Under the pieces are notes generated by a model. It worked only from the letters and a program-made list of their open reading frames with translations. It was not told where the DNA came from and searched no databases. A stretch of 64,000 nt of DNA from contig NC_068347.1 of the NCBI RefSeq assembly GCF_014633365.1, positions 33,894,116 to 33,958,115 of the forward strand, read 5' to 3'. This DNA comes from Diospyros lotus. Its lineage: Eukaryota > Streptophyta > Magnoliopsida > Ericales > Ebenaceae. The translations under genes and the position numbers were made by a program. Below are positions 13,701 to 43,866 of this stretch, piece by piece; the stretch's first letter is position 1, and each line of letters begins with the position of its first letter.

Positions 13701-14015
13701 TAGCTAAACATGCGACTGACTCATAAATAGCACTATTAAATAAATTTAAAACATTTTTATACCTCGCGTACACATACAGGCAGAGTTTCGGCGCTTTAAA
13801 AATTACGGAGCATTCACAACGATGAAACATCGCTATTTATAAGCGCCAGAAGATGAGGAATCGGCCAAGGGAGGGAAATTTGGGTTGCCAGGGGCCTCCC
13901 TTATGCTGCCACGTGGCAGCAAGGGAGAAGGGGTGTATGGCCACCCACGCAGCACAGCCAAAGGCGCACGCCTGGAGCCCTGGCCGCGTGGCTGCGCACG
14001 GCCTTGTTGCGCGCG

Positions 14016-16053
14016 TGATTAGTGGTTAATTTTATAAAAATTTTGTTATAATTATACCCTTCTTTTGATCTTAAAAATGGTTTAAATTAGATATTAATAT
14101 ATATTTTATGGTTATATGCAAGTTTAAATTGAAAAATGAATGAAATGAAATTTTAAAGTAAAATTTAATAATAATAATAATAATATATAAAATTATATAT
14201 AATACATATACATCATTATATGCATGCATGTAATATATATATATAATATAATCTAATATATATATATGTGTGCCATGTGTAATACATATATATAATATAT
14301 AATTTATTAATAACATTAAATTATTATTTTTTTTTTTTAGGCATGAAGAATTCAAGCCCATGAAGATTTAAAGTCCATGAAGACATCAAATCCATAAAAA
14401 ATTCAAATCCATGAAGAATTCAAGCCCATGAAGATTTAAAGTCCATGAAGAATTAAGGCCCAATTTGAGCAACCCATGGAAGATATTATTTGGAGAAGGC
14501 CCAAGGATTATTTTTAATCCTAATAAAGATTAAAAAACCAATTTATAGAAATCTATTTTTATTTTTTATGTGAGAGCTTTATTAGGTATGTTTTTTAGCT
14601 AAAATCCATTTAACTATTAGGTGGATATTATAGCTAAAATCCATTTAACTTTATGAGTGCTTTATTAGGTATGTATTTTAGCTAAAATCCATTTAATATT
14701 AGGTGTGTATTATAGCTAAAATCCATTTAACTTTAAGTGTGTGAGTGCCCATTAGATATAATTATGTCTAGTTGAATAATTGAAATTGTGTGGTTTGTAT
14801 TGCATCTTGTGGCCTATAAATAGCTCACTTGATTGCATTTGTAAGTGTGATTATTATTCTTGAATCAAAGTTTAGTTATTTCCTTAGAATTCTCTCTTTG
14901 AGAATTGCTTTTGTTCTCTCTCATTTTCTTTAGTATTTTCTCTTGTGATCTTACTTTCTTCCTTTCTTCCTTTCTTCTTTTCTTCTTTTAAATTCTTATG
15001 TCATTTATTATTACTTTATTATTCACCGCCTAAATGGACGGTTAGTTTATGCCTTTAAATTCTTGCAATTTTAATTCTTGTATTTTAATTGTTCACCGCC
15101 TAAATGGACGGTTAGTTTCTTGCCTTTAAATTCTTGCAATTTTAATTCTTGTATTTTAATTATCTACCGCCTAAATGGCCGGTTAGTTTCTTCTATTTTA
15201 ATTCCTGTCATTTAAATTCTGTTATTTAAATTATGTCATTTAAATTGTTGTCAATTAATTTAATAGAGATGAGTAGCTAAATCTAATCTTGGGTTAAGGC
15301 AAGGACAGTGTCTAACGCCAATGATTCCCAAAGAAAGCTACGCTTTAAATGAGTAACATTGGTTTAAACTTCAATATGAGTGTGTTTTGATTATTGAAAA
15401 ATCACTAGGTTTGGATTGGAGCGTAAGCCTAAGAGCTTTCATGTCACGCATGAGAGTTACTAGAACTGGAAACGCTATCATACCCAAACCCGGATGATTA
15501 ATTTAGTTGTTTTGTGTATTAATTGTAATTGAATTTATGGTAGTTTCTTAAATTAGAATCCCGCATATCATGTATGGGGATTGCTTAAACTAGAGCTATC
15601 ATTATCTTTAATTGCATTTAATAACAAATCCTCATATCTGAAATTAAATTAATGTTGCTAATCTTTTATGCTAATATTTGGGAATCAACGGGTTGGCACT
15701 GAAATTGTCTTAACTCAAGTACTTTCCAATTTCATATTCTCACGTTTAGTATTTATTTCAACTTCTGTCTTGCTTTATTTTCTAGTATTTGTTATCTAAA
15801 AAAATCATAAAAAAATCATGTTATCAATCCATCTAAATGCGTGTGCGTGTGTGTGACATTCTTTTTTCTTTTGCCATAAATAAATCTCTCAGTGGACGAC
15901 CTGGACTTATCCAGAAAGTATAAATTTAAATTTGAACTACAACTGCACTCGTACACTGACGAGTATAAACCTCTCGCCTAAATAAATAAATAAAATATAA
16001 AATTTTTATTGTGTTTTGTTTTGTGTTTTAATTGCAGGGTGAGAGTGCAGTCA
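14016..16053 (+). repeat. 5' LTR of the Athila-type element
   Basis: 2038 bp, TG to CA. It holds several internal tandem arrays: short units around GAATTCAAGCCCATGAAG (14343-14460), AGCTAAAATCCATTTAA units (14600-14735) and three units with CCGCCTAAATGGACGGTTAG (15027-15190). Confidence 0.93.
14815..14822 (+). promoter_or_regulatory. TATA box of the 5' LTR
   Basis: TATAAATA after GGCC, upstream of a pyrimidine-rich leader. The same box is at 26641-26648 in the 3' LTR. This is the likely start region for the genomic RNA. Confidence 0.6.
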
Positions 16054-16058
16054 AATTT

Positions 16059-16075
16059 TGGCGCCGTTGCCGGGG
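16059..16075 (+). other. Primer binding site, tRNA-Asp
   Basis: TGGCGCCGTTGCCGGGG starts 5 bp after the 5' LTR and is complementary to the 3' end of plant tRNA-Asp including CCA. This is the usual primer for Athila-clade elements. Confidence 0.85.
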
Positions 16076-16189
16076 AGATTGAGGCAAAAACAAAAAGAAA
16101 AAAAAAAAAAAAAAGAGAAAGAAGAAGCATCTCCTGATAAATTCGGTAACTCTGTTTCTTTTTACTTTATTTTTGTTTGTCCATTGTGT

Positions 16190-19100
16190 ATGATACTTAG
16201 GTCTGGTAGAACTGTAGAAAATCAATCGCTCATGTCTCAACACAATGAGAACATACCACTTGCACACAACATGTCTGCACGTGGTAGTGACCACGGTGAC
16301 CCTGATCCCATTGATCAGGAGATGATCAGACCCCTCAGAGAGTATCTTCATCCTCCTAGGCAGACAACCCCCTCTTGTATTATTCTTCCCATCAACCACC
16401 ATAGGTTTAACTTCAAACCTGGCACAATCCAATTGTTGCCAACTTTTCATGGCATGGATTCTGAAAATCCATATACTCATATGAAAGAATTTGAGGAAGT
16501 ATGTAGCACTTGCATGGACCATACAGTAAATGAGGATGTCATCAGATTAAAACTCTTTCCATTCTCACTGAAAGATAAGGCAAAAATATGGTTAAGCACT
16601 CTCTCACCTAGATCTATAGGAACTTGGAGAGAAATGCAAACAACTTTCTTAAAAAAATACTTCCCTGCCAACAGAACTGCTACTCTTCAAAGACAAATCA
16701 TGAACTTTGCCTGTAAACCAAATGAGAATTTTGCTCAAGCGTGGGAAAGGTTTAAAGACCTTCTTCACACTTGTCCGCACCATGCTTTTGAGCAATGGAG
16801 AGTGGTCAGTTTCTTTCATGATTCACTCACTCCACAATTGAAAATGCTAGTTTCTACAATGTGCAATGGAGAATTCTATGAGAAGACTCCAGAAGAAGCT
16901 TTCCACTTCTTTGACACATTGGCTGAGAATACAAGAAACTGGGAAGTTGGTCCAACATCTGCTCTTGATTCAAGAGAAAATCCACAACCTAGAGGGAGAT
17001 ACCAACTAAGTGAGAGTGATGATTTAAATGCAAGACTAACTGCTTTAACAAAGAAAGTTGAAAACATGCAACCCAAAAAGGTGCAATCTGTTAATCAAGT
17101 GGAAGTAAAGTGTGTTGTGTGTGATGCAATAGATCATTCAACTGAAGAATGTCCTACCCTACCTGCTTTCAAGGAGGTATTGTATGGGCAGACTAATAAC
17201 AATCATTCACACAACTTTGAGGGGAGACAAAATCAAAATCAGAGTGGAGCCTATTATGGGAATAATCAGAACTACAATTCATACCATCCCAATAATAGAA
17301 ATCACCCCAATTTTTCTTGGAGAAATGATTTTGGAAATCATTCTCAACCTCCCTTCCCTGCACAACAGCACACTTTCCAACAAAATCAAGGTTCTTCATC
17401 CAATACTTACCAACCTCCTCATAGGAGATCTTTGGAAGATACCTTGCACCAGTTCATCCAAAGTCAAACAGGTATCAATAATCAGGTTGCTCAGCTTGTC
17501 AAAAATCAAGACCAAACAAATAGAGCTGTAGAAGACATTAGGAGCCAGTTGACCAAGATAACACAAACATTGAGTGTGAGAGAACCCGGAAGGTTTCCAT
17601 CCCAAACTAATCCTAACCCAATTAGACAAACCAACCAGGTAGAAGCTTCAAATAGTGAAACCAACACTCATGAACAAGTGCAAGCAGTGACTGCCCTAAG
17701 AAGTGGAAGAATAATTGAGAAACCAACTGATCCTAGGATAAACCAACATGTTGATGAAGAAAAAGAACCAAAAGATTATGAATCCACCGTGGAAAAAAAT
17801 GAAAAAAATGAAAAAAATGAAAAACAAAAAGAAAATGAGAAAGAAATTCAATACAGGCCCAAACCACCTTTTCCACAAAGGTTGAATCATTTGAAAAAAG
17901 AGCAACAAAATACAGATATATATGAAGTGTTTAAGCAAGTGAGAATCAACATCCCGCTGTTGGATGCAATCAAACAAACACCTTCATATGCAAAGTTTTT
18001 GAAAGATCTGTGCACTGTCAAAAGGAAAACAAATGTGCATGAAAAGGCATTCTTGACTGAACAAGTCAGCGCCATTCTCCAATTGAAAACTCCTCCCAAA
18101 TACAAAGACCCAGGCTGTCCAACCATTACATGCATCATAGGAAGTCAAAAGGTTGATCGGGCACTCTTGGATTTAGGAGCTAGTGTCAATTTGTTGCCAT
18201 ACAGCGTGTATCAACAGTTGGGATTAGGTGAGCTTAAACCCACTAGAGTGACCCTTCAGCTGGCTGATCGATCAGTCAAAGTTCCACGAGGAATTGTGGA
18301 GGATGTTCTGGTACAAATCGATAAGTTCTACTTTCCAGTAGACTTCATCGTTTTGGACACCCAGCCACATCAGGGTCCTCAACCTCCTGTGCCAGTCATC
18401 TTAGGTCGACCATTCCTTGCCACATCAAATGCCATCATCAACTGTAGGAATGGTGTGTTAAAGCTATCTTTTGGGAACATGACTGTAGAAATGAATATCT
18501 TCAGGGTAGCCAAACATCAGGACACTGAGAGTGAAGTGGAGGAGGTAGACTTGATCCAAACACTGACCAATGACTGTTTTGAAGAGTTCATGAGAAGACC
18601 CAAAGAAGGAAATCAAGATCTTGAAGAAATAAAAGAAGTGGAAGTCATAAGCAAAGAAAGTGAGAAGCCTACATGGATGCCTGGTTTAGAGCCATTAAGG
18701 AACTTGGACAGTAAGCTCATGGCTCCTGATAGCCATCAGTCCACGCCTGAGAGAAAGCCATTGCCCAGTGATTTGAAGTATGTCTTTCTAGGAGAAGGGG
18801 AAGCATTCCCAGTAGTGATCTCTTCAAGTTTGACACCTCAGCAAGAGCAACAATTGATAGAAGTTCTAAAAGCACACAGGAAGTCATTAGGATGGACCAT
18901 TTCAGATTTGCAAGGTATTAGCCCTTTGATATGTACTCATAAGATATTCTTGGAAGAAGGAGCAAAACCAGTTAGGCAAATGCAAAGGAGATTAAATCCC
19001 AACATGAAAGAAGTTGTCAGAAAAGAAGTGCTTAAGCTATTGGATGCTGGAATAATTTACCCAATCTCTGATTCTAAGTGGGTAAGTCCAACACAGGTAG

Positions 19101-21670
19101 TACCCAAAAAGTCTGGAGTCACTGTTGTAAAAAATGAGAACAATGAACTGATTCCCACGCGCATCCAGACAGGATGGCGTATGTGCATTGATTATAGAAA
19201 GCTCAATTCTGTGACAAGGAAAGATCATTTTCCTTTGCCTTTCTTGGATCAAGTTCTGGAGAGAATAGCAGGCCAAGCCTACTATTGTTTCTTAGATGGG
19301 TACTCAGGGTACAATCAGATAGAAATTGCATTAGAAGATCAAGAGAAGACAACTTTCACATGTCCATTTGGGACATTTGCATACAGGCGCATGCCATTTG
19401 GGTTATGCAATGCTCCAGCCACCTTTCAAAGGTGTATGATGAGCATTTTCAGTGAAATGGTTGAGCAGATTGTTGAAGTATTTATGGATGACTTTTCTGT
19501 TTATGGAAGTAACTTTGAGGCCTGTTTGGAGAATTTGAAAAAGGTTTTAGCAAGATGTGAGGAAACAAATCTGATACTCAATTGGGAAAAATGTCACTTC
19601 ATGGTGAAACAGGGCATAGTCTTGGGGCACATCGTTTCATCTAGGGGGATGGAGGTAGACAGATCAAAAATTGAAACAATTCAAAAACTCCCCATCCCTA
19701 GGAATGTGAAAGACATCAGAAGTTTTTTGGGACATGCAGGGTTTTATAGGAGATTCATTGCTTCCTTTAGCACCATAACAAGACCCTTGTGCCATTTGTT
19801 GTCTCAAGATGTTCCGTTTGAATGGAGTCCTGCCTGTCAAAATGCTTTTGATAAATTGAAAGATGCACTCATTTCAGCACCTATCATTCAGTCCCCTGAT
19901 TGGTCCCTCCCGTTTGAACTTATGTGCGATGCTAGTGATTACGCGGTAGGAGCTGTGTTAGGGCAGAGGAAGGATAAGAAACCTCATGTGATATACTATG
20001 CTAGCAAAACTCTTAATGAGGCACAAAAGAATTACACCACTACAGAGAAAGAGTTACTAGCAGTTGTCTTTGCCCTGGACAAGTTCCGATCTTACCTCGT
20101 AGGGTCACTAGTGATCATTTTTACTGATCACGCTGCTCTGAAGTATTTGTTCACAAAGCAAGATGCAAAACCCCGTCTGCTCCGATGGATCTTACTCCTG
20201 CAAGAGTTCAACATTGAAATCAGAGACAAGAAGGGAGTAGAAAATGTGGTGGCTGACCATTTGTCAAGGATTCCAAGTCAAGATCTCACACAATTTGATG
20301 AACCAATTCATGACAATTTCCCTGATGAGCAACTGTTTGAAGTGAATGTTATTCGTGCATCATCTGTTGTCCCTTGGTATGCTGACATTGCGAACTACCT
20401 GGCAACTGGTCTGATCCCAGACCATTGGAGTAAGCAAGATAGGCATAAATTTTTCAGAAAAGTCAGAACCTTCTTTTGGGATGAGCCCTACCTCTTCAAG
20501 TATTGTCCTGATCAAATCATCCGTAGATGCATACCCGATCATGAGCAACAAAGTGTCATCAATTTCTGTCATACTCTTGCATGTGGAGGCCATTTTTCTG
20601 TCAAGAAAACAGTTGCAAAAATTTTTCAGAGTGGATTTTATTGGCCGATATTGTTCAAGGATGTGTACAAGTTCTGTTCAAATTGTGATCGATGTCAAAG
20701 GATAGGAAGTCTGTCAAGGAGAAACATGATGCCATTACATCCGATCCAAGTGTTAGAAGTTTTTGACTGTTGGGGTATGGATTTTATGGGCCCATTTGTC
20801 AATTCATTTGGTCATGAATATATCTTACTTGCTGTTGACTATGTGTCCAAATGGGTAGAAGCAATCCCGGCCAGAACAAATGACCATAGGACTGTCGTGA
20901 AATTTTTGAAAGAAAACATATTCAGTCGATTTGGGATGCCACGAGCAATCATCAGTGATGGGGGTTCCCATTTTTGTAATAAAGTTGTGGCAGGATTAAT
21001 GAAGAAATATGGTGTACTGCATAAGGTTGCAACACCATACCATCCCCAAACCAATGGTCAAGCCGAGCTAGCCAATAGGGAGATTAAGCGCATATTGGAA
21101 AAGACTGTTGCTGCTAATCGTAAGGATTGGTCCTTAAGACTAGTAGACGCTCTTTGGGCATACAGGACAGCTTACAAAACAATTTTGGGAATGTCTCCCT
21201 ATAGGCTAGTATACGGTAAATCTTGTCATCTGCCGGTGGAAATTGAGCATAAAGCATATTGGGCAATTCATAAGATCAACAAGAGTCTAACTGAAGCAGG
21301 CTTATCCAGGAAGCTCCAATTGAATGAACTTGAGGAAATTCGGAATGAAGCATTTGAAAATGCACGATTGGCCAAGGTTCGCATGAAAGAGTTACATGAT
21401 CGGCATATCATTCGAAAAAGCTTTCAGGTAGGGCAACAGGTACTCTTGTACGATTCTCGATTGCATCTATTCCCAGGAAAATTGAAGTCTCGATGGGTCG
21501 GCCCTTTTGTAATCAAGTTCATCTCAGGATATGGGTCATTTGAGATAGAAAATCCGGAGTCAGGACAGCTTCTAACAGTCAATGGTCATAGGTTGAAACC
21601 ATACCAGGGTAGTGTTGAGGAGAATGAAGGAGTTGTGGATTTGGATGATCCACCATCATCTGATGAATAA
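16190..21670 (+). CDS. gag-pol polyprotein, Athila-type Ty3/gypsy
   Basis: One uninterrupted frame, 1826 aa from the first ATG at 16190. The frame is open further upstream but has no earlier ATG. Order: gag with a retrotransposon gag domain; one CCHC knuckle at 17111-17152; aspartic protease with DLGAS near residue 661; reverse transcriptase with FMDDF near 1100; RNase H with [13 protein letters not shown] near 1247; integrase with an HHCC region and catalytic D1531, D1590 and E1626 (D-X35-E); no chromodomain. It would supply particle, processing, copying and insertion functions. All motifs look intact, so this copy may be competent for its own movement. No frameshift or stop separates gag and pol. 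The accessory genes lie 840 bp and more downstream. Confidence 0.95.
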
Positions 21671-22510
21671 GGGAAGTTTCATGTCGTCTGGGAATCTGAC
21701 GTTAAAAGACCACCTTTCCATTTAGGTTAAATGGATGTTTATAGATCTGAAAAAAAAAATAAAATAAAAATAAAAATAAAAAAAATAATAATAATAATAA
21801 TAATAAAGAAGTATATATATAAGTTGTTCATTTTCTGCATTACTTAATTAACTTTGATTCAAATAGTGTTTCTCTGTATGCAGTCTAAATAAAAATTTTT
21901 CCATACGAGTTCATGTATTGAAGACCGTCAGGTATGCCTATCTTCTATCCTTTTATTGCCGATTGAGGACAATGCGCAATTTAAGTTGGGGGGTAAGGTG
22001 TACTTATTGATTTATTAGTGAAATAATTTTGATTGACTTGATAATATTGTCTTGTGTGATATATATGATTTTATTGGGCCCCTACTAAAAAAAAAAAATA
22101 AAAAAAAAAAAATAAAAATTTACCACAAAAAAAAAAAATTAAAAAAAAAAAAAAAAAAATTTGAATTGAGAGAGACAGAATTGACGCTGGTGGTAGCTAT
22201 CTTTTCTTGGGCAGTGCAATCACACTGCCCTATAAAGGATAAGGCACACTGCCAAATGTTGAAAAATGAGGCACCAAGCGTTGAAAAAGAGACGCCAAGC
22301 CTGACCCTGTAATTGTGACATGTCTCGACTCGAGTGTAGAATAGTGATGACCGTTGCTCTATAAGAGACTCCACATCTGTATGAGGCAAGTCACCCTTCT
22401 TGAGCTCAATCTTCTCTCCTTTGTGTTATCCTTCGATCAGGTACTCTCATCCCTTTTGCAAAGTTTATAGTTCTTTACTTTTTTTTTCTTAGTATAGTTA
22501 AAAAAAAAAA
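21671..22510 (+). other. pol to accessory-gene spacer with polypurine-like tract 1
   Basis: A-rich simple sequence (21750-21820, 22088-22160). AAGTTGGGGGGT at 21983-21994 follows TTGAGGACAATGCGCAATTT. A pyrimidine tract ending in AG at 22470-22492 is a possible splice acceptor 18 bp before the next ATG. Confidence 0.6.
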
Positions 22511-23056
22511 ATGGATCTTTATCTCTCAAAAATTCACAAGTACTATCCATCTCTCCCGCAGAATGATTTGAAAAAAATTTATGTTGCTAGGTGTGAAAGA
22601 CTTAGGTTGTTGATGCTTAATAACATCCCTGAAGATATTCGTTGGCTGATCGAAGCAAAAGTTCGATTAGCTGGTGAAACTTCACCTAGTTTTAAGCATT
22701 TTCCAGGCTTAGGGAAGAGTAGTTTTGCGAAGAAAAGAAGAGCGAAAAGAGTGAATGGTTGTTACAAATGTGCTCGATGGACCTGTAACACACGATGCAA
22801 ATCTGTGGGGTTTACGTCCATAAATCGAGAAGATAAAATTAGTTTCATAAAGGATGGACTGAGTAAGGAGTCTCTGGATGATATCCGATTGACTCTTGAG
22901 ACGCATCCGTGTGGAATAGTGCAAAGAGAACTTCTTGCTTTATGGACCCAGTTCAGAAGTGACCACCAACGCTATAGTCTTGGGAATCTGACTAAAAACG
23001 ACCCTGTTTGCCAATCTATAAGAAAATTGGATGGGAAGCTTATCCCCGCTTCATAG
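22511..23056 (+). CDS. Basic Cys-rich zinc-finger-like protein (virus NABP-like)
   Basis: An intact 181-aa frame inside the retrotransposon. Residues 73-81 are a strongly basic arm (AKKRRAKR region). It is followed at once by C84-X2-C87-X4-C92-X3-C96, and then by a segment with FIKDG near 112. A basic arm running into a compact Cys cluster and a short FI-x-x-G stretch recalls the Cys-rich nucleic-acid-binding proteins of carlaviruses and related plant RNA viruses, some of which counter RNA silencing. That is pattern resemblance, not proven homology. The N-terminal third (residues 1-60) is helical-looking and unassigned. It sits where Athila elements have an env-like gene, but no signal peptide or membrane segment is seen. 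Alternative: a captured host zinc-finger fragment. Start chosen at the only N-terminal ATG, directly after an A-run. Confidence 0.75.
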   Translation: MDLYLSKIHKYYPSLPQNDLKKIYVARCERLRLLMLNNIPEDIRWLIEAKVRLAGETSPSFKHFPGLGKSSFAKKRRAKRVNGCYKCARWTCNTRCKSVGFTSINREDKISFIKDGLSKESLDDIRLTLETHPCGIVQRELLALWTQFRSDHQRYSLGNLTKNDPVCQSIRKLDGKLIPAS

Positions 23057-23223
23057 AAAGTGTTTAAGCCGTTTTTGGACGTAAAACCAGAGGAAGATGT
23101 GAGCCACAATCACAACTACTTATACATACGCATGATTTTTGTTTGTATTTATTTCTTGTTGAATTGTTGTATAGCTACTTTTGATCGCTAAATCTCTTTC
23201 CAGGGCATACAAAAGGAACAAAC
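23057..23223 (+). other. Spacer between the accessory genes with a possible splice acceptor
   Basis: 167 bp. CTCTTTCCAG ends at 23203, 21 bp before the LOG-like ATG, with a branch-point-like GCTAAAT just upstream. It may serve a spliced RNA for the second gene. Confidence 0.4.
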
Positions 23224-23883
23224 ATGGAAGGTCAGTTAGTTCGTCGAATCAAAACCATATGTGTACTTTGTGGCTCTCAACTTGGGAGTGATATTTGTTA
23301 CGCACTTGCAGCAAGCGAACTAGGCAAAAAATTAGGAGAGAAAAAAATTAATTTGGTATATGGAGGGGGAAGTCGTGGATTGAATGGTTATGTTTCACAA
23401 GCTGTACATCTTGGAAATTCATCTGTGGTAGGTGTAATGCCATTCCCTTTAGCTGAACCACATATTTCTGGGATTACACGCGGTTAACTTATAGAAACGA
23501 CTTCTATGTCTGAGCGTATGGCTTGTAAGATTTATCAGTCAGACGCCTTCATTGCTTTACCAGGAGGTTTTGGAACACTTGAAGAAATGTTTTGTATAAT
23601 CTCCTGGGCCAAGAGTAATCTCCATACCAAACCAATTGGACTTTTAAATGTTAACCATTTTTTTGATGGGTTGCTCTCTTTTCTTGATCAGGCTGTGGAT
23701 CAAAAGTTCATTTCTCTTTCAGCAAGAAAGATTCTCATTTCCGCATCCACCATTGATGAGCTGCTAGAAAAATTACACACTTATGTTCCACAGCACGATC
23801 CTTATGAGCCTTGGATAGACTGGTCTAAGGCAATTAGTAACAAGCGCCAAAGGGGTCCGATTAATTTAGATTTATCACTGTGA
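23224..23883 (+). pseudogene. LOG-type cytokinin riboside 5'-monophosphate phosphoribohydrolase, intronless, one in-frame stop
   Basis: LOG enzymes release active cytokinin bases from their riboside monophosphates in the cytosol. The frame is 219 codons plus terminal stop, the normal LOG length. Seen: CVLCGS at the N terminus, a nucleotide-binding VYGGGSRGLNG near residue 40-50, an Arg (98) aligning with the catalytic Arg, and the signature PGGFGTLEE at 113-121 with Glu121. A single TAA at 23485-23487 (codon 88) interrupts it. The same frame stays open to 23883, with an internal Met at codon 95 (23506). Plant LOG genes normally have several introns; none is present here, so the copy came through RNA. 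As it stands only an N-terminal piece would be made, barring readthrough. Other active copies of the element may carry an unbroken gene. Confidence 0.88.
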
Positions 23884-25162
23884 GAAATGCTCTTTATTAA
23901 GATGGCTGAGTAAGGAGTACTTTTTGTACTCTTGAGACGCATTTTAAGTATTGAACAACTTGCAGGATTTTTCTTGGTTGTGTTCTTAAAAAAAAAAAAA
24001 AAAAAAAAAAAACTGTGGAATGTTGTTAGGCAAAGTCTTTGATAAGATGGCTGAGTAAGGAGTACTTTTTGTACTCTTGAGACGCATTTTTTTATCTTAT
24101 GACTTGCATGGAATTTTTATTTTGGTGTGAAAATATAAATATATATATATATATGGTATGCTCATTTGTTGTTTAAGTTTTAGCAGTTCACAGCAAATCT
24201 ATGGACTTGTGGAGTTACAGGTATTCCTAACAACCCTAGTTTATTACTGCAATTCAAGTTGGGGGGTGTAAGGTCTAATTATGAATTATCTGGTTCATAT
24301 TTAACTGTGAGTTTGCTATTGCTAGTTTGTAGTATTGTGTGATTTTGATTATCTTTATCTGCTCTTATTAAAAAAATAAAAAATAATAATAATAAAAAAA
24401 AAAAAAAAATTATGTGTTTTAAATAATGCTATTCCTAAAGCTTGAAGTTATGCACTGATAGCCGGTTAAGTTTGCAATACAAAACATGAATGCATTGATT
24501 TCTTATTTGAAAACGTATATGCATTAGAATAAGTAATTTGCATTCATCGGGGATTCAAAATTTAAAAATTAGTTATCGGTCATAAAGTCAAAGGTAACAG
24601 TAATTAGCTGATTAGTACACTGTATGATCTCTCAACAAAAGTGGAGACTATTACCCAAGTGAGTGTTTGAGCCTAATAACCGTTAATTCTGAGTGAAATA
24701 ACACTTACTCTAAATATGCTTTATTGTTTATCTTATCTTTTCAATGGCTTCAAAACATCAATTCGCATTGAATGTCTAGTATGATAACGGATAAGTTTGA
24801 CTGGTTTCAAACTCTGAATTAGATGACTGAGTATCATCGTTTTGTAGAAGCATGATAAGGGGATCAATTTCTTTCATTTTGAGCTTATTAAACCTTTTTC
24901 TTTCTTTAAATTAACCTCCTTTGGTAGCCCTTTTGAGCCATTTGTAGTACAACTTTCTTCGCTACCTTCGTTTTACCCAAAACAATATGAATTTTGACCA
25001 ACCTGGTGTGTTTTTGGGAATTAATCTGTCTATCTATTTTCATATTTAAAGAGAAAGAAAAAGAGAAAAAGAGAAAAAAAAAAAAGAGAGAAAAAAAAAA
25101 AGAAAGAAAAAAAAAAGTGAAAAAAAAATGGGGCAACTTCTCTTAGCTATTCAGCATAACTG

Positions 25163-25203
<41 letters not shown>

Positions 25204-25773
25204 GACACACACACTTTCCATAATTTACCTTTTCTTTGACAACCCGTATTAACCTCATAGCCCCATTACAACCCAGTCTGGTCCCATTTTATGCTATAAA
25301 TCATGTGATCTCAGAATTCGAGTTTGGAGTAGGGAATCATGTTTAAATTCAGAAGTTACTCATCTAGAGCATTATTCCAATCATGAAGCTATATCAATTT
25401 CCTTGTTCTTTCATGAAAATACGTTCCTTGTATTTGGGATGACACTGAGTTTTGAACTTGTTCTGCATTTACTCTTATAACGGTGCACCCCCTTGTGTGT
25501 ACACCTGAGAAATCCTTTTTATTGGAGGGAAAATCCATAGTGAGATTTGAGTCAAAACTTCAAGAGAGTAAGTCTGTGTGTTGGTCATCCTAATTGCTAT
25601 TCCTGAGATTGTATGATCTTTAACCAAAAATCTGATTTAGAATGCTAAATTATTTATTCAATTTTATGCATTTCGATTTCAAATTTGAAATTTTTACATT
25701 CATACAGTTATTAAAACTTGGCATGTGTATAGTCTGATTGCTAAGGGACTAGCAATGTTTAAGTTGGGGGGTG
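23884..25773 (+). other. 3' untranslated region of the Athila-type element
   Basis: Noncoding. It contains a 43-bp direct repeat (23901-23943 and 24046-24088), a long A-run (23990-24011), polypurine-like tract 2 (AAGTTGGGGGGT, 24256-24267), A/G-rich simple sequence (25040-25200) and the true polypurine tract (25761-25772) abutting the 3' LTR. Confidence 0.75.
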
Positions 25774-27887
25774 TGATTAGTGGTTAATTTTATAAAAATT
25801 TTGTTATAATTATACCCTTCTTTTGATCTTAAAAATGGTTTAAATTAGATATTAATATATATTTTATGGTTATATGCAAGTTTAAATTGAAAAATGAATG
25901 AAATGAAATTTTAAAGTAAAATTTAATAATAATAATAATAATATATAAAATTATATATAATACATATACATCATTATATGCATGCATGTAATATATATAT
26001 ATAATATAATCTAATATATATATATGTGTGCCATGTGTAATACATATATATAATATATAATTTATTAATAACATTAAATTATTATTTTTTTTTTTTAGGC
26101 ATGAAGAATTCAAGCCCATGAAGATTTAAAGTCCATGAAGACATCAAATCCATAAAAAATTCAAATCCATGAAGAATTCAAGCCCATGAAGATTTAAAGT
26201 CCATGAAGACATCAAATCCATGAAGAAATCAAGCCCATGAAAAATTCAAATCCATGAAGAATTCAAGCCCATGAAGAATTAAGGCCCAATTTGAGCAACC
26301 CATGGAAGATATTATTTGGAGAAGGCCCAAGGATTATTTTTAATCCTAATAAAGATTAAAAAACCAATTTATAGAAATCTATTTTTATTTTTTATGTGAG
26401 AGCTTTATTAGGTATGTTTTTTAGCTAAAATCCATTTAACTATTAGGTGGATATTATAGCTAAAATCCATTTAACTTTATGAGTGCTTTATTAGGTATGT
26501 ATTTTAGCTAAAATCCATTTAATATTAGGTGTGTATTATAGCTAAAATCCATTTAACTTTAAGTGTGTGAGTGCCCATTAGATATAATTATGTCTAGTTG
26601 AATAATTGAAATTGTGTGGTTTGTATTGCATCTTGTGGCCTATAAATAGCTCACTTGATTGCATTTGTAAGTGTGATTATTATTCTTGAATCAAAGTTTA
26701 GTTATTTCCTTAGAATTCTCTCTTTGAGAATTGCTTTTGTTCTCTCTCATTTTCTTTAGTATTTTCTCTTGTGATCTTACTTTCTTCCTTTCTTCCTTTC
26801 TTCCTTTCTTCTTTTCTTCTTTTAAATTCTTATGTCATTTATTATTACTTTATTATTCACCGCCTAAATGGACGGTTAGTTTATGCCTTTAAATTCTTGC
26901 AATTTTAATTCTTGTATTTTAATTGTTCACCGCCTAAATGGACGGTTAGTTTCTTGCCTTTAAATTCTTGCAATTTTAATTCTTGTATTTTAATTATCTA
27001 CCGCCTAAATGGCCGGTTAGTTTCTTCTATTTTAATTCCTGTCATTTAAATTCTGTTATTTAAATTATGTCATTTAAATTGTTGTCAATTAATTTAATAG
27101 AGATGAGTAGCTAAATCTAATCTTGGGTTAAGGCAAGGACAGTGTCTAACGCCAATGATTCCCAAAGAAAGCTACGCTTTAAATGAGTAACATTGGTTTA
27201 AACTTCAATATGAGTGTGTTTTGATTATTGAAAAATCACTAGGTTTGGATTGGAGCGTAAGCCTAAGAGCTTTCATGTCACGCATGAGAGTTACTAGAAC
27301 TGGAAACGCTATCATACCCAAACCCGGATGATTAATTTAGTTGTTTTGTGTATTAATTGTAATTGAATTTATGGTAGTTTCTTAAATTAGAATCCCGCAT
27401 ATCATGTATGGGGATTGCTTAAACTAGAGCTATCATTATCTTTAATTGCATTTAATAACAAATCCTCATATCTGAAATTAAATTAATGTTGCTAATCTTT
27501 TATGCTAATATTTGGGAATCAACGGGTTGGCACTGAAATTGTCTTAACTCAAGTACTTTCCAATTTCATATTCTCACGTTTAGTATTTATTTCAACTTCT
27601 GTCTTGCTTTATTTTCTAGTATTTGTTATCTAAAAAAATCATAAAAAAATCATGTTATCAATCCATCTAAATGCGTGTGCGTGTGTGTGACATTCTTTTT
27701 TCTTTTGCCATAAATAAATCTCTCAGTGGACGACCTGGACTTATCCAGAAAGTATAAATTTAAATTTGAACTACAACTGCACTCGTACACTGACGAGTAT
27801 AAACCTCTCGCCTAAATAAATAAATAAAATATAAAATTTTTATTGTGTTTTGTTTTGTGTTTTAATTGCAGGGTGAGAGTGCAGTCA
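25774..27887 (+). repeat. 3' LTR of the Athila-type element
   Basis: 2114 bp, matching 14016-16053 except for an extra 68 bp of the GAATTCAAGCCCATGAAG-type array near 26205 and an extra TTTCTTCC unit near 26800. No base substitution was noticed on visual comparison. Confidence 0.92.
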
Positions 27888-29120
27888 GCGCGCGGCCACG
27901 TGCATAGGCACCGCCTGGCGCCTAGCTGTCACACTGAGAGTGGACACCACCCCAGTTGTTGGTTCAAGTGGCGGGGCTGAGAGTGGACACCACCCCAAGT
28001 TCCTTTGAGCGATAGCATTAATACCGATGTGTTGTTAATTCTGGGGATAGTGTTGATGTGATACTCTTGGGGCTAGGATTGCGTTGGGTTTTGGAATGCT
28101 TTTGAGTAGGAGCGTAATGCCTAACAATGATAATGGGGTGATTACCGGGTTCATATGTCGAGGTCGTCCTTCTTAAGCAGGATTGTGTTTGCTAATGGGT
28201 CAATGTGGTTGTGTCGCCTTTAGAGATATTGCATTTTCCCCGGTTAGGGCTAAAGGCTATGTGGGATTCTCTTAGGCTAAGGTATGTCAGGATTTTTCGG
28301 TTTTATACATGATTTTGCATATATTCATGAAATATTTTTGAACTCTTACTTAGATGATTAAGCATTTAATTTGGACTATGTCCCTGGAATATTCAAACGT
28401 TCCAGGTGAAAGCAGTGGCGCTAAGGAAAAGGATGTCGTCGAGATGTAGCTGCTATGTTTAGTTTTCGTAAGTCTTTGTCTATGATTACAATGTTCAGAG
28501 TTTATGTAATATTTTGATATTTTCATGTGAAATATCTATTTGGTTATTTAACTCTGAAAGGAATTTATCGGTTATATATCATTGAGGTTTTGATCTTGCT
28601 TCCGCTGATGTGATTGATAATACATGTCTTAGTATTAATTTTTAAATTTTGATATGCTAAGAAGGTATAATTGGGATTGTCGAGAAATGATTATGATGAG
28701 GGTATGCATATCGAGAGACTTATGTTGTGTGTATAATGTTGGAAAAAAAATATTTCTAAAATCTCGAGGTAATGCACGTTTTGGGAAGACGGGGCGTTAC
28801 AGATCGGAGAAGCCCGATAATGAAGGGCACAGAAGTCTGATAAGGAAGGCTAGAAAAGTCTGATCGAAAAAGCCCGATCGGAGAAGCCAGATAATGAAGG
28901 GCGTAGAAGTCTGATAATGAAGGCTGGAAAAGTCCGATAGGAGAAGCCCGATAATGAAGGATGGAAAAGTTCGATCGAAAAAGTCTAATCGGAGAAGCCC
29001 GATAATGAAGGGCGTAAAAGTATGATAATGAAGGCTGGAAAAGTCCGATCGGAGAAGCCCGATAATGAAGGGCGTAGAAGTCTGATAATAAAGGCTAGAA
29101 AAGTCCGATCGGAGAAACCC

Positions 29121-34848: not shown

Positions 34849-37259
34849 TGTAATACCCAGGAATGATTTGAGGTCATAAATAATATTTGATAAATGGTAC
34901 AAGTGGAATTATCAAAAGAATAAGGCTTTAGGACACACTATTGCAGTCTTAAAAGACCGAAGTGGCTCGAGGGAGTACCCCAGACCTTAGATAGCCAAGG
35001 AAAATGGTATAATATCGACAAGTGATTCGAATTATGATTTTTAGTGATTAAATAAATTGGATCAGGAACAGTTTTCGGTACAGCTATTGACCGGGCTGAG
35101 GAAAACCGAATCGACGTAGGAGACATCCAAAAAGTCAACGGAGCATGTTGGGGACTAGTATTTAATGTGTAGAACAACCCTTAAGCGATTTCGGGTTGAA
35201 TCAAATGGATTTAAGGTCAATTTGACCAATCGGGCCTAAGTGCAATTTTCTAATTTTACCCGAGGGAGGTCAAAACGGTAATCTTTCAGGAATCTTGAGG
35301 GTCAAATGAGATGTACTAAACTTGTGGGACTTAGAGGTATATTTGGATTTATTAGGGGTGCTTTGGAAGGGGGCATAAATGTCATTTGGAAAGTCAAGGG
35401 GGTGAAAGTGCAAATTATCAAACTTGCATAGTGTGAACACAACAACCAGATTTCGGCCGCCGCAAATCTTTGCACGTGGAGGCCGATCTCGGCAAAGGGA
35501 TGGCCAAGGGCGACCTGGGGGAGGTGGTAGCCGGCGCAAGGATGCTTGGTGACCAAGCTATGGCCGGTGATTGGCCAGATTTCGACCGGTTTTTGGGTAT
35601 AAAAGGGGCCGAGGGTTTCGGATTTTGGAGCTCAAAATCGATCGTGTTTTTGGATGTTTTTGAGAGAGTGATTAAGGGGCTTTTGATCCTTGCATCGAGG
35701 AGAAGAGATTGGGAGTAATTTGAAGCATTTTGGTGTGAGTTTGAGGGTTGTTCGAGTTCGGCCAAGAATCGGAGGCGGTCCGCCACCGCCAACCTGCAAC
35801 TGGCCGTTTGGGCCATTTTTCGGCGAGCTTTCGGCCTAAAAATGGTGCCGTTGGGATCGACTCACCGAGGGCTTGAAGGGGGTGTGCTTAGATCGGTCAT
35901 CGGAGGGGTCGTCGCCGGCGGGTCTTGAGGAAGAAGACGACGCGCGTGGCTGCACGCGCCAGCCTCCACGCGCAGGGCGCGTGAGAGCGCGTGCGAAGGG
36001 CTATTTTGGTAATTTTAATTCCAATATTTTTATTTAATTATTCTAGGAATTATTGTGTTGAAATATTTCGAAAAATAGTTGAAGAAATAATTATTTTGGA
36101 ATTAACGAGGAGAAAGTTGGGAGAAAATAGAGGAAATTATGGAAAAATTGAGGAAAATAGATTTTAATGCTTCCTTAATTAAATATGATGTTTAGGAAGT
36201 ATCTTGGCTTGAGGTTGAGCACAAGTTCAAGTATTTGGGGCTTGGCACGCAAATCGAGGTCGTGCACAAGGATCGAGGCAATCCAAATTCGTTCAAGGTG
36301 AGTGGTTTGATTCCAACTTTTTCCTTGTCTTGGAAGTGTTTTTAGGTGCCTGTGGTGAGTTCTAGTGAGCGGTTATACCCTCCTAGACATAGATTGTTTT
36401 ACAAGGCTTTTGCTTATGATCATTGTGTCGATATTTGCTACATTGCATTAACTGTTTTATTTTAAAATGTTGGTACATGGCATGTAATTTTCATATCATT
36501 TAAATTGCATCGTTGGGTCCGTATGGGGCGGGATGGGGTCTACTTGAGATTGGGACAATATTAATCCAGGTGAACGGGTGTCACACTGGGGCACTCGAGG
36601 GAATAATGTTAAACCAGGTGAACGGGTGTCACGACGGTGCACTCGAGGGATTAACGTTGGACCAGGTGAACGTGTGTCACAGTGGGACATTCGAGGGATT
36701 AAGTATGTCAAGGTGATATCTCGAGTTAGACGTGTCTTGCATGTTGTCGTATAGTATGTCATGTTCGTATGTCTTTCATGCATTGTATAACTGTTTCATA
36801 CCTTCACTTAGATGTTTATCATCTAATCTGGGTTATGCCCCTGGAACGTTTAATGTTCCAGCCAGGGACTGCTGCGAAGGCAAGGATGTGGCCGGTTGAG
36901 GGCCAATGGTGCTTAGTTTGTTAGTCGTTGTATCGTTTGGAGGCTTTAGTATGTATTTCAGGTTGTAAATGAACAGTTGTATAATAGCGATTTTATCATT
37001 TGATCTGTATTAAGTATTTTGCTATGGAAATACAATGGTGTTTTGGTATTAGTGTATCCGCTGCGTTGTATTAAGACTCGTTTAGTTTAAGATTATTGAT
37101 CTTGATAGTTAAACGGGCAAGACTGGGGTTCGCGGGGTTTTGTTTCTGCATGTGAAGATTGTTCTTGAAATACCGCGCGTGTGTAACTTAAAGAGAAAAA
37201 AAAAAAGAAATCCCGGGAATACCCTTATAGTGACACGCCTGGCGAGACGGGGTGTTACA
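34849..37259 (+). repeat. 5' LTR of the LARD-like element
   Basis: TGTAATACCC to GGGGTGTTACA. TATA box TATAAAAG at 35598-35605. Three tandem units around CCAGGTGAACGGGTGTCAC at 36568-36680 (two in the 3' LTR). Double stem-loop at 36808-36861. Confidence 0.9.
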
Positions 37260-40200
37260 ATTGGTATCAGAGCCCTAGGTTAAAACCCTAGGACGATTTG
37301 ACTAGGTTGTTGAACTTAGCATGATTTGAACTATTGAATGAGAACTTAGAACGGGATTATGGATTCTAGAAGACATTCGGCACATAGTCGAAATAGTATG
37401 GAGACTCTAGAGAGGTGAAATTTGAGGTTTTCAATTTGAATATACTTTCAGCGTCAAAAGAAGACGAACAAGTTCTGTTCACATCTTTTGGAAATTAGGA
37501 AGCTAGTGAAGAGGGTCGTCGAAATGAAAGAGATATATAATCCAAAACCTTTGAGGAATAAATACTTTGGTAATTCTGGTACAACTTGAAGTATAGTATA
37601 AAATCTCTTTCGGAAGAATCTTAGTGAATTGTCTTAGTACCCTCCCGTTTGGGACATGGTAAATAATGGTGGTGTCATGCCTTGACAAAGATAATCGAAA
37701 CGATGGAGATTATTAGGAGAACCTGTCAAGGGCGTGGGAAAGAAAAACGACTTGAAGATCTTAAGGTTAAGTTAGATATCCAAATTGAGGACTTAAGAAG
37801 AACGGATTCAGTTAGGGCTAACTAGTGAAAATCTCGAACGGAGACTTAGAGGAGGGGAGCCGATAGGTCATAAAGATAAAATCCCTGCTTAGAGATTTGG
37901 GGGTTTGTCGGTTGAAGTCTTTGACATTATTAATTGAAGAATACTAGATTTTTGCTGAGTGATGAAACGTTGGATTGGGAGTTAGCATCAAACAATATGG
38001 GTCGAATGTAAGGTTGGTTCGACAAACCATAACTGAGGATTCGTAAGAATCGAAAACCGTAGATTGAAGATCATTAGTTAAAATCAATCTCACTAAATGT
38101 TGGGATAACTGGTGGTTATTAAAAAGAAACAAGTTGTGGACGATTAGTTTAATATGGCATATCCTAATTGTAAGTCAGGTTTGATCGAATGGTATAAGGA
38201 TTCAAGGAAAAGAATGACTTGGTATAGATTGAGGATCCTAAGGAACGACCCGATAAGAAACTCAGGATGATTCGATAAGTGCTTTAGAGAACAGAGCTTG
38301 AGGATTTTAGGAATCCAGAAGTGTTGGTAGGGATATTGAGATAGAAAAATCGGAATTGATGACAGAGATAATAAAGAAATAATACCTTAAGAAAACGACT
38401 CATAGGGACGAGTCATATGTTATTCAAGGACAGAGAGAGTTAAGACGTAGATTTAAGTTTTATGGAAGTTTTGGGAGATGATAAAAAAAAAAAAAAGAAA
38501 GAGAACTGTATCGAGGATATTAGTTTAGGATTAGACAAGAAAAATGAATCGAAACTAAGTAAGGATCAAATTCTTGTTTGAGGTGTTAGAAGTTTTTCTC
38601 GATAGTAATTAGCTTGAATAAAATGCTCTAGGTTATAGTGGGAATTTTCCTTTTGAATAAAATCTTGATGATATAGGATTTTCGAATAGTGACTACGAGA
38701 CAAAGAGGGATCGACCGTAAATTGGCTATAGTTAGGATCAAGCTATGATCGGAAGTTAATAGGATGTAGAACGTAAAGTTTGCATGTTTCGAGGATTAGG
38801 ATTTTCCCTTGGAAGTTAAAAGAATCTTTTGGCTTAAAGAGAATTTGCAAAATGGAGCCTTACTCGATGATTTTGAGATTGTAAATAATATAGGGAACAA
38901 CGATAGATTAGAGATTTGTGATTTAAAACGAACATTGGAAATTAGAAAAAAAAAAAAATCTTGGGATAAGGGAATTATGCGTATTACTATTGAGGCTTGC
39001 TAAAGCTTGATTAAGCTCATAAAGATATCTTGGAATTTGATTAGGTCTTAGCAAAATTGAAGTTGGTCCTAATAGATTCAAAGCAATAGGAATGATTGAC
39101 ATATTAACCTGTATAGTGAGTGTTAGTTGAAAGTCAATCGAGGAATAAATCTTGTAATAGATTAAGCATACGGCCGTGACGAAAATATGGTTGAACTATC
39201 TAGTATAAATTTAGAAAATAATAAACTGGAAATACAATTGATGCTGGAGTGTTTGATAAATTATGAACGTCTGCAAGAGCAGCAATAGGAGCGTGAGGTT
39301 CCGTCACATGCATAACAAATTTGGAAAGTAAAAGAGATTAAATTGTGGGAAAGAAATCCGAAGTCTTAGGAATGGTTAGGATAAGGGTGCTCGATACGAT
39401 TGAGTGTTACTCTGGAAAAGAACATTAGGAAGCCAAAAGATCAGGGAGTTGGATTAGTACCAATAGAACCACTGTAGCTCTCAGAGATAGAATGAGGAAT
39501 TCTAAGCATAACAATAACACCATTGGTGTTGGTTTGTAACAATGGATCTGAGCCTAAGGACCAAGGCAGAGGACTGGTGGTTGGCTCGCGGTTTGGAGTG
39601 TGATACCTACAAATTGGAGCAACACAGTGAACTGTGGAGACAGTCAGGTGCCAAAGTTTGGGACAACACTGAGGATGTTATGTATGGTTTAGAGTCCAAG
39701 TTCCTAGGGACCAGAGCATCGTGGTAGGATCCCTAAATCATTATTGAAAGGTAGAAGGATTGGAAGATGACCTAAGCAGGTTAATTGCTATGTGGAATAT
39801 GGTAGTCGATAATCAAAAAAAAAAATCGAAAGAAGGAAAAGTAATCTCAAGTGACAAAACAAAATCTGGCAAGATGTTAACAGAGATTTGTGAAGGATTC
39901 TTCTAGGATAATTTCATTCACGACAGAAATTCGTGAAGTTAAGGTTACTAAGAAATGATTAGTTAGCCTGGGAATTCAGGAGTTGTGATGAAATAATAAT
40001 TATGCTCCTAGGTCGAGGTAGAATAGTCCTTGGTATAGACATATGTTGTGGAGTTGCTTCCAGATTAAGCAAATGGTGGGACAATTGTTTTTTTTGATAT
40101 GGCCTTTGGAAGAATTTAATTACGATTATTTACCTGGTTTTGGTAGTGTATTTAATATTACGCGCCCCAGAAATTGTGAGCAATAGGCTCTATTTAGTTG

Positions 40201-41503: not shown

Positions 41504-43866
41504 TGTAATACCCAGGAATGATTTGAGGTCATAAATAATATTTGATAAATGGTACAAGTGGAATTATCAAAAGAATAAGGCTTTAGGACACACTATTGCA
41601 GTCTTAAAAGACCGAAGTGGCTCGAGGGAGTACCCCAGACCTTAGATAGCCAAGGAAAATGGTATAATATCGACAAGTGATTCGAATTATGATTTTTAGT
41701 GATTAAATAAATTGGATCAGGAACAGTTTTCGGTACAGCTATTGACCGGGCTGAGGAAAACCGAATAGACGTAGGAGACATCCAAAAAGTCAACGGAGCA
41801 TGTTGGGGACTAGTATTTAATGTGTAGAACAACCCTTAAGCGATTTCGGGTTGAATCAAATGGATTTAAGGTCAATTTGACCAATCGGGCCTAAGTGCAA
41901 TTTTCTAATTTTACCCGAGAGAGGTCAAAACGGTAATCTTTCAGGAATCTTGAGGGTCAAATGAGATGTACTAAACTTGTGGGACTTAGAGGTATATTTG
42001 GATTTATTAGGGGTGCTTTGGAAGGGGGCATAAATGTCATTTGGAAAGTCAAGGGGGTGAAAGTGCAAATTATCAAACTTGCATAGTGTGAACACAGCAA
42101 CCAGATTTCGGCCGCCGCAAATCTTTGCACGTGGAGGCCGATCTCGGCAAAGGGATGGCCAAGGGCGACCTGGGGGAGGTGGTAGCCGGCGCAAGGATGC
42201 TTGGTGACCAAGCTATGGCCGGTGATTGGCCAGATTTCGACCGGTTTTTGGGTATAAAAGGGGCCGAGGGTTTCGGATTTTGGAGCTCAAAATCGATCGT
42301 GTTTTTGGATGTTTTTGAGAGAGTGATTAAGGGGCTTTTGATCCTTGCATTGAGGAGAAGAGATTGGGAGTAATTTGAAGCATTTTGGTGTGAGTTTGAG
42401 GGTTGTTTGAGTTCGGCCGAGAATCGGAGGCGGTCCGCCACCGCCGACCTGCAACTGGCCGTTTGGGCCATTTTTCGGCGAGCTTTCGGCCTAAAAATGG
42501 TGCCGTTGGGATCGACTCACCGAGGGCTTGAAGGGGGTGTGCTTAGATCGGTCATCGGAGGGGTCGTCGCCGGCGGGTCTTGAGGAAGAAGACGACGCGC
42601 GTGGCTGCACGCGCCAGCCTCCACGCGCAGGGCGCGTGAGAGCGCGTGCGAAGGGCTATTTTGGTAATTTTAATTCCAATATTTTTATTTAATTATTCTA
42701 GGAATTATTGTGTTGAAATATTTCGAAAAATAGTTGAAGAAATAATTATTTTGGAATTAACGAGGAGAAAGTTGGGAGAAAATAGAGGAAATTATGGAAA
42801 AATTGAGGAAAATAGATTTTAATGCTTCCTTAATTAAATATGATGTTTAGGAAGTATCTTGGCTTGAGGTTGAGCACAAGTTCAAGTATTTGGGGCTTGG
42901 CACGCAAATCGAGGTCGTGCACAAGGATCGAGGCAATCCAAATTCGTTCAAGGTGAGTGGTTTGATTCCAACTTTTTCCTTGTCTTGGAAGTGTTTTTAG
43001 GTGCCTGTGGTGAGTTCTAGTGAGCGGTTATACCCTCCTAGACATAGATTGTTTTACAAGGCTTTTGCTTATGATCATTGTGTCGATATTTGCTACATTG
43101 CATTAACTGTTTTATTTTAAAATGTTGGTACATGGCGTGTAATTTTCATATCATTTAAATTGCATCGTTGGGTCCGTATGGGGCGGGATGGGGTCTACTT
43201 GAGATTGGGACAATATTAATCCAGGTGAACGGGTGTCACGACGGTGCACTCGAGGGATTAACGTTGGACCAGGTGAACGTGTGTCACAGTGGGACATTCG
43301 AGGGATTAAGTATGTCAAGGTGATATCTCGAGTTAGACGTGTCTTGCATGTTGTCGTATAGTATGTCATGTTCGTATGTCTTTCATGCATTGTATAACTG
43401 TTTCATACCTTCACTTAGATGTTTATCATCTAATCTGGGTTATGCCCCTGGAACGTTTAATGTTCCAGCCAGGGACTGCTGCGAAGGCAAGGATGTGGCC
43501 GGTTGAGGGCCAATGGTGCTTAGTTTGTTAGTCGTTGTATCGTTTGGAGGCTTTAGTATGTATTTCAGGTTGTAAATGAACAGTTGTATAATAGCGATTT
43601 TATCATTTGATCTGTATTAAGTATTTTGCTATGGAAATACAATGGTGTTTTGGTATTAGTGTATCCGCTGCGTTGTATTAAGACTCGTTTAGTTTAAGAT
43701 TATTGATCTTGATAGTTAAACGGGCAAGACTGGGGTTCGCGGGGTTTTGTTTCTGCATGTGAAGATTGTTCTTGAAATACCGCACGTGTGTAACTTAAAG
43801 AGAAAAAAAAAAAGAAATCCCGGGAATACCCTTATAGTGACACGCCTGGCGAGACGGGGTGTTACA
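41504..43866 (+). repeat. 3' LTR of the LARD-like element
   Basis: A copy of 34849-37259 lacking one 48-bp unit. Double stem-loop at 43415-43468. Confidence 0.9.

Follow-up and report, generated by a model that had tools for sequence, protein, structure and literature searches.

The young Athila-like LTR element found at 14016-27887 of the window (the whole 64-kb stretch of the Diospyros lotus genome analysed here) carries after pol a gene for a carlavirus-type Cys-rich protein (CRP) and then a LOG-like gene. These two genes and a repeated RNA motif look as though selection has kept them, in contrast to an accidental acquisition. Our preferred reading, to which we give a probability of roughly 55%, is that the retrotransposon has in this cassette an accessory module under selection, in which CRP acts on the element RNA alongside a LOG fold put to new use. 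All features given below lie on the + strand, except the target-site duplications, which are unstranded.

The element is bounded by a 5' LTR (14016..16053) and a 3' LTR (25774..27887), with the target-site duplication GCGCG on the left (14011..14015) and on the right (27888..27892). The primer-binding site, TGGCGCCGTTGCCGGGG, is at 16059..16075. Two polypurine-tract-like repeats, the first 3' of pol (21976..21994) and the second at 24249..24267, precede a third polypurine tract which adjoins the 3' LTR (25754..25772). In alignment the two LTRs differ only in one 8-nt repeat unit and in a tandem-repeat stretch, where the repeat number is unequal and 11 mismatches are found; the LTR pairs of two other genome copies show 8 mismatches over 2025 columns and 0 over 2152. 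A Pfam scan of the single gag-pol open frame (16058..21670) identified Gag, protease, RT, RNase H and integrase domains. With its two LTRs, target duplication, primer-binding site, polypurine tract and integrase placed after RT-RNase H, the element is a Ty3/gypsy LTR retrotransposon. Neither a chromodomain nor a Tat-type second RNase H was seen in the scan of the element (E<=1), and the Athila clade is defined as the part of the OTA group that has neither (PMC6317226); on this domain content the element is assigned to the Athila clade and is called Athila-like here. The matching LTRs and the target duplication described in the first-pass annotation are confirmed. Athila-clade elements are described as having a single gag-pol, large noncoding regions and extra sense ORFs between pol and the 3' LTR (PMC7264820; PMC6317226), features which the window element shares. 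It departs from them in its accessory region, where CRP and LOG occur with a recurring RNA motif and a conserved TATA stretch instead of ORF-1 or an env-like ORF: neither Athila ORF-1 (PF03078) nor an env-like ORF was present among its Pfam matches or ORFs.

The CRP gene (22511..23056) encodes 181 aa, with a basic stretch followed by a zinc-finger-like CX2CX4CX3C motif. The protein matches the Pfam families Viral_NABP (E 1.4e-8, 35.4 bits for a curated cut-off of 23) and Carla_C4 (E 3e-4, 21.1 bits for a cut-off of 20.9), which bears out the earlier description of a basic zinc-finger-like protein resembling those of plant viruses. It shares this profile match with the Cys-rich nucleic-acid-binding proteins of carlaviruses, allexiviruses and mandariviruses, and its basic stretch and Cys cluster follow each other like the viral NLS and zinc finger, as described in PMC12172455. 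It differs from the viral proteins by its location inside an LTR element and by a long conserved C-terminal part which overlaps the RNA motif. CRP had no matches in viral contigs, and its structural model, a weak one (pLDDT 73), gave no Foldseek match at E<=0.001 in the viral or PDB libraries. Among 580 candidates 527 were CRP homologues at E<=1e-3. A scan of genome contigs gave a single locus, L001, which is labelled Nomurabacteria; because it encodes a plant-type pol and CRP, it is taken as plant contamination. LOG is absent from the 3330 bases of L001, so that LOG would be dispensable for some relatives.

The LOG-like gene (23224..23883) is cut in the window copy into 87 and 125 codons by an in-frame stop (23485-23487), and its second piece matches Lysine_decarbox (LOG) with an E of 7.2e-27 in Pfam. 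The LOG-type frame announced by the first-pass annotation is thus present as a family match and is not one open frame here; the annotation had passed over the stop, as well as the repeated RNA motif and the conserved TATA box. The stop is private to the window copy (0/29 other copies selected by CRP). The element-type LOGs keep the PGGxGTxxE motif, the catalytic Arg (56/59) and Glu (58/59), and the nearest solved chain is 2a33 (target TM 0.95, 48% identity); fold and catalytic residues are therefore shared with the plant cytokinin riboside 5'-monophosphate phosphoribohydrolases (At2g37210, At5g11950). Two characters set them apart from these plant LOGs, namely the absence of the adenine-binding Lys that follows the catalytic Arg and the presence of a C-terminal LxLxL tail (23866..23880, found in 46/46 full-length genome copies). 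The lysine occurs in 0/58 full-length element-type LOGs, compared to 4/4 solved chains and 120/120 host LOG matches, and the tail in 54/59 full-length element-type matches compared to 0/120 host matches, the latter being mostly LOG1/LOG3-like, with only one LOG8 chain and P0219 beyond these. LxLxL is an EAR-type repression motif, and the peptide of the LOG tail conforms to it. A tree built with 59 of 120 element-type matches (200-225 aa), 35 of 120 host matches and one solved plant chain separates the 59 element-type LOGs from the 36 host LOGs with support 100/98. One of the element-type LOGs, P0121, carries the public-record name "probable ... LOGL10 [Diospyros lotus]".

Because the adenine-binding lysine is gone and the LxLxL tail has been gained, the label "cytokinin-activating" given to this enzyme by the first-pass annotation appears doubtful from sequence, even with its fold and catalytic Arg and Glu in place. 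This bears on the model of the first-pass annotation, in which silencing would be dampened by CRP and the local cytokinin level of dividing tissue raised by LOG. The conserved fold and catalytic motifs and the purifying selection described below are consistent with it, and the CRP of citrus yellow vein clearing virus is reported to suppress local silencing (PMC12172455). Against it stands the replacement of the lysine in all 58 full-length element LOGs, since a Lys to Ala change at the adenine site of a bacterial type-II LOG abolished AMP activity according to PMC5379747. The residues found in the element clade are Met, Leu, Ile, Thr or His, mostly the first three rather than Ala, so that these enzymes may still act on a prenylated substrate. 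As a whole we regard this alternative as rather unlikely.

The number of copies and their pattern of substitution argue for a maintained cassette. In the Diospyros lotus genome there were 994 candidates for CRP and 926 for the LOG domain; the best 150 of each set were scored, with 150/150 matches for CRP and 150/150 for LOG, and CRP was present in 48/48 copies fetched via their LOG; the cassette is not a one-off. Copies picked by best LOG score and copies picked by CRP identity constitute two separate samples, the former leaning to intact LOG and the latter to intact CRP. The dN/dS analysis (NG86) used 46 LOG frames and 38 of 39 full CRP frames, including that of the window and leaving out L002, which has a 4-codon deletion. 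Between the two subfamilies dN/dS was 0.29 for CRP (dS 0.154, dN 0.045) and 0.28 for LOG (dS 0.205, dN 0.057), and 95% intervals bootstrapped over four pairs fell within 0.10-0.76 for CRP and 0.14-0.61 for LOG. Judged by these ratios, both genes evolved under purifying selection between subfamilies, and neutral evolution of the two frames, which the first-pass annotation had named as grounds for giving up the idea of a working system, was not observed. Within subfamily A the ratios were 0.63 (CRP) and 0.95 (LOG), and within subfamily B 0.47 and 0.37; as those of subfamily B are also below 1, only subfamily A contrasts clearly with the between-subfamily values in the direction of neutral decay. 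A chance capture, carried along without function, could account for the broken LOG of the window copy and of 9 of the 29 other CRP-selected copies. It is contradicted by the between-subfamily ratios of about 0.3, by the 20 of these 29 copies in which LOG is open and by the occurrence of homologues in several eudicot families, and we hold it to be very improbable.

The third component is a predicted hairpin-like RNA motif made of a stem, a conserved asymmetric internal loop and a stem. It has three matches per locus in 48/48 loci, once within the CRP frame (22850..22911) and twice in noncoding DNA after LOG (23897..23947 and 24042..24092). The noncoding copies are 0.946-1.000 identical between subfamilies, compared to 0.79-0.86 for adjoining noncoding DNA. 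Since the second and third copies are almost the same sequence (96% identity over 55 nt), independent instances of the motif are few. The pair counts come from an alignment that had been fitted to the structure: both positions vary in just 2 of the 13 pairs, and the number of additional pair types (7) lies below that of shuffles (9). The stretch of CRP around the motif is constrained at the nucleotide level: between subfamilies dS falls from 0.252 in codons 1-100 to 0.050 in codons 101-181, a four- to five-fold reduction of synonymous change in the 3' half, with 10 and 1 fixed synonymous codons respectively. Compared to the distant L001, codons were identical at 47/59 shared degenerate residues in CRP codons 101-181, at 33/68 in codons 1-100 and at 144/309 in pol (Fisher p 3e-6 for codons 101-181 against pol). 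Directly 3' of the CRP stop, a conserved noncoding block (23057..23118) has 0.984-1.000 identity between subfamilies and is also present in L001; no unusual fold was found for it. A hammerhead ribozyme was also considered and set aside after comparison by eye with its core letters. The motif pattern had no matches in viral contigs.

Two further explanations concern this motif. It could be a constitutive transport element that, like those of simple retroviruses, engages the export factors of the host on its own, CRP then having another role. The predicted hairpin, its conserved internal loop, its repetition and its position near the 3' LTR are compatible with this, given that such an element has two internal loops and that the direct repeats of Rous sarcoma virus flank src and bind NXF1, according to PMC7551171; the likeness to the window motif is one of layout only, with cis-acting RNA elements that recur close to the 3' LTR. 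Arguing the other way, one motif copy lies within the CRP frame, and a search of positions 13900-28000 against Rfam at E<=5 gave 8 weak matches, none at the motif. This possibility appears unlikely to us. The noncoding copies could otherwise be remnants of an old CRP duplication, with the synonymous constraint due to codon usage, to exchange of sequence among the subfamilies by recombination or to an overlapping frame. A second CRP-like stretch (22981-23003) is echoed directly 3' of pol, at 21689-21711. The noncoding copies, however, retain the stem and internal loop without the coding loop and are more conserved than the surrounding coding DNA. The synonymous suppression is also seen against the distant L001 and is therefore not explained by recent recombination within the genome, and none of the other frames stays open over the full length of the constrained stretch. 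We judge this origin improbable.

Sites that may serve separate expression of the two genes were found between pol and LOG. In the 78 loci of the promoter and LOG residue counts, which represent 77 distinct copies (L035 and L071 are the same copy; L078 is the window), a TATA-box stretch, CTCTATAAGAGACTCC (22357..22372), is exact in 72/78 and is conserved across subfamilies, and a donor-like GATCAG|GTA (22435..22443) is exact in 75/78. An acceptor-like TTCTTAG (22486..22492), located 5' of CRP, has the best value of 230 AG sites in an ad hoc scoring scheme and takes a different form in subfamily A; the acceptor-like site 5' of LOG (23196..23204) ranks 12/230, its motif being present in 73/78 loci. 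The conserved TATA box and the splice-like sites suggest an internal promoter. Under our preferred reading, this promoter and alternative splicing would provide CRP and LOG messages separate from the gag-pol RNA. CRP, basic and with a zinc finger like the nucleic-acid-binding proteins of plant viruses, would act within the nucleus on RNA of the element itself via the repeated motif, in export, protection from silencing or packaging. LOG would be a captured plant LOG whose pocket has been altered and which is probably no longer an ordinary cytokinin-activating enzyme, and its LxLxL tail may contact host co-repressors of the TOPLESS type.

Foamy viruses have an internal promoter. Their accessory genes near the 3' LTR, served by a promoter of their own, are similar in layout only to the window element, where the promoter is a proposed one. 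A bolder and doubtful extension is that plants possess "complex" LTR retroelements comparable to complex retroviruses, where an internal promoter would drive two proteins, one with a zinc finger of RNA-virus type and one with a repurposed LOG fold and a tail that binds co-repressors. The zinc-finger protein would recognise a thrice-repeated RNA element, one copy of which lies in its own gene, and so govern what becomes of unspliced RNA from the element, as a plant counterpart of Rev and its response element.

A LOG domain in gypsy elements is not new. A YgdH/LOG domain in Ty3/gypsy elements of Citrus and Populus is already in print (PMC9289625, citing Steinbauerova 2011), which qualifies the earlier statement that no described retrotransposon has this pair; the portion of that account at hand mentions no CRP partner, lysine change, LxLxL tail or RNA motif. 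Our literature search found no report of the CRP-LOG pair, nor of the RNA motif or the changes seen in LOG, and for the pair itself the statement stands to that extent.

The use of the extra ORFs of plant LTR elements is mostly unknown. Here one ORF is of plant-RNA-virus type and the other probably a host hormone enzyme whose pocket changed after capture; as both are accompanied by an RNA element acting in cis, the parts lend themselves to separate testing. For annotation, a warning is that an element-type LOG (P0121) bears the name of a probable LOGL10 in public records. If our reading is true, plant retroelements would steer their own RNA and host transcription via dedicated proteins.

The window contains a single LTR element carrying this cassette (14016-27887), flanked on both sides by GCGCG. 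Its gag-pol is one open frame encoding domains for Gag, protease, RT, RNase H and integrase; a domain search (E<=1) detected no chromodomain and no second RNase H in it. This domain content is consistent with the definition of the Athila clade in PMC6317226, in agreement with the first-pass annotation of an Athila-type element with a target duplication. The interval from pol to the 3' LTR contains CRP (22511-23056), a gene for a Cys-rich, carlavirus-type zinc-finger-like protein, and a LOG-like frame (23224-23883). The element has three polypurine-tract-like repeats, at 21976, 24249 and 25754, the first two of which bracket the cassette. The first repeat lies in a 38-nt context that L001, a distant relative, shares at 95% identity; there it comes after CRP, whereas in the window it precedes CRP. 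L001 is catalogued as a Nomurabacteria MAG contig; it codes for a plant-type Athila pol and CRP, and is probably plant contamination in a public bacterial assembly. Just 3' of pol, a 23-nt stretch (21689-21711, TGGGAATCTGAC...) is an 83% echo of window positions 22981-23003 within CRP; it could be another repeated cis motif or the trace of an older CRP. Elsewhere in the window a further pair of direct repeats (34849-37264 and 41504-43872; 2.4 kb, 97.6% identity) possibly represents the LTRs of a second element.

Searches of the genome yielded at least 926 LOG-domain and at least 994 CRP candidates, both counts being lower bounds. Among the best 150 of each, a sample biased to good matches, an internal stop was present in 1 LOG and 8 CRP rows. 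The window's cassette is not a single copy: a CRP match accompanied all 48 copies retrieved via LOG; the CRP frame was full in 40 of them, the LOG frame in 46, and both frames in 39. The first-pass annotation had two accessory frames in the window; CRP stands, but LOG is broken by a stop at 23485-23487. This stop is found in none of 29 other copies chosen by CRP identity, and LOG is open to full length in 20 of them. The closest named homologue of the window's LOG is P0121 from Diospyros lotus, which matches the second piece of the split frame at 93%. Public plant annotations label both P0121 and P0232, which are element-type LOGs, as host genes (LOGL10). Three CRP copies with an identical stop, spaced by about 7.3 kb (G000 C11:16478565, 16485827 and 16493276), are likely a local tandem duplication.

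The copies sort into two subfamilies, A and B, and neither frame evolves neutrally between them: dN/dS is 0.29 for CRP (dN 0.045, dS 0.154) and 0.28 for LOG (dN 0.057, dS 0.205), with bootstrap intervals remaining below 1 (four pairs), as purifying selection predicts. Within subfamilies the ratios are 0.63 (CRP) and 0.95 (LOG) in A, and 0.47 and 0.37 in B. The climb toward 1 in the youngest copies matches what selection in the replicating lineage, followed by drift of inserted copies, would produce; it is less clear in subfamily B. Against L001, CRP codons 1-100 give dN 0.25 and dS 1.8.

Part of the cassette is also conserved at the nucleotide level. Between subfamilies, CRP dS is 0.252 in codons 1-100 versus 0.050 in codons 101-181; the latter are 0.972 identical, and codons 1-100 and LOG about 0.917. 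Identical codons are used at 47 of the 59 degenerate residues that CRP codons 101-181 share with L001, and at 144 of 309 in pol. An RNA motif, made of an outer stem, a conserved internal loop (5' CUGAGUA, 3' GAGACG) and an inner stem, occurs once in CRP and twice 3' of LOG. Its model matched exactly three times per locus in 48 of 48 loci, a result that shows conservation and not independent discovery, the model being derived partly from the window. Noncoding motif copies are 0.978-1.000 and 0.946 identical between subfamilies and the block 3' of CRP 0.984-1.000; other noncoding DNA reaches 0.79-0.81 in the spacer between these two motif copies and about 0.85 past the second polypurine repeat. 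The motif has fold z-scores from -2.0 to -3.1, with weak support from covariation; the block 3' of CRP folds no better than shuffled sequences. A TATA stretch 5' of CRP (CTCTATAAGAGACTCC) recurs letter for letter in 72 of 78 loci and is invariant in ten compared rows covering both subfamilies, its surroundings being about 84% identical between subfamilies overall. A donor-like sequence (GATCAGGTA) is exact in 75 of 78 loci, and an acceptor-like site lies 5' of LOG in 73 of 78. The proposed arrangement would be a single internal promoter with two alternative acceptors.

The CRP protein exceeds the Pfam cut-offs for both Viral_NABP and Carla_C4. A protein search (580 candidates) gave 527 homologues at E<=1e-3; the best 120 include proteins from Populus, Orobanche, Xanthoceras, Acer and Rhamnella. 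Aligning 63 sequences gives a mean identity of 71% per column, with conservation of 90% or more at the four cysteines; L002, a locus outside the window, has lost four residues from its Cys cluster in a frame that is otherwise open. CRP and LOG domains are fused in three Orobanche gracilis predictions (P0044, P0071 and P0105). The longest contig is of equal length for CRP P0004 and LOG P0154 (8723 bases each), and likewise for CRP P0052 and LOG P0150 (2128 bases each), an indication, short of proof, that each pair is on a common contig. Gypsy elements of Citrus and Populus with a LOG domain are already published (PMC9289625, which cites Steinbauerova 2011). On the pair in one retrotransposon, which the first-pass annotation took to be undescribed, our literature searches listed no paper, the last of them being too broad to exclude one.

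The LOG itself is altered. In a tree of 59 element-type LOGs, 36 host LOGs and two bacterial chains, the element-type sequences form one side of a branch (support 100/98). The most basal, P0219 from Xanthoceras, has the ordinary lysine at the adenine site and no LxLxL tail, and is possibly a host gene. In the remaining 58 this position is occupied by Met, Leu, Ile, Thr or His. Lysine is present in 120 of 120 host hits and all four solved chains, and in none of the 77 readable genome loci out of 78 (74 SERM and one each of SERI, FERM and SEHM). According to PMC4979012 and PMC5379747, this lysine touches adenine in CgLOG, and its change to Ala in CgLOGII abolished activity on AMP. The catalytic Arg (56/59) and Glu (58/59) are retained, in line with a LOG-type enzyme; the loss of the adenine-site lysine makes the cytokinin-activating role named in the first-pass annotation doubtful. 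Of the full-length element-type hits, 54 of 59 have LxLxL among their ten C-terminal residues, versus 0 of 120 host hits; LxLxL also forms the C-terminal end of all 46 full-length genome copies. LxLxL is an EAR-type motif, which binds TOPLESS. In the predicted structure of P0121 the core is confident (mean pLDDT 86) and closest to 2a33, and the tail is of low confidence. Judged from these residues, the element LOG may be a LOG fold turned to another use.
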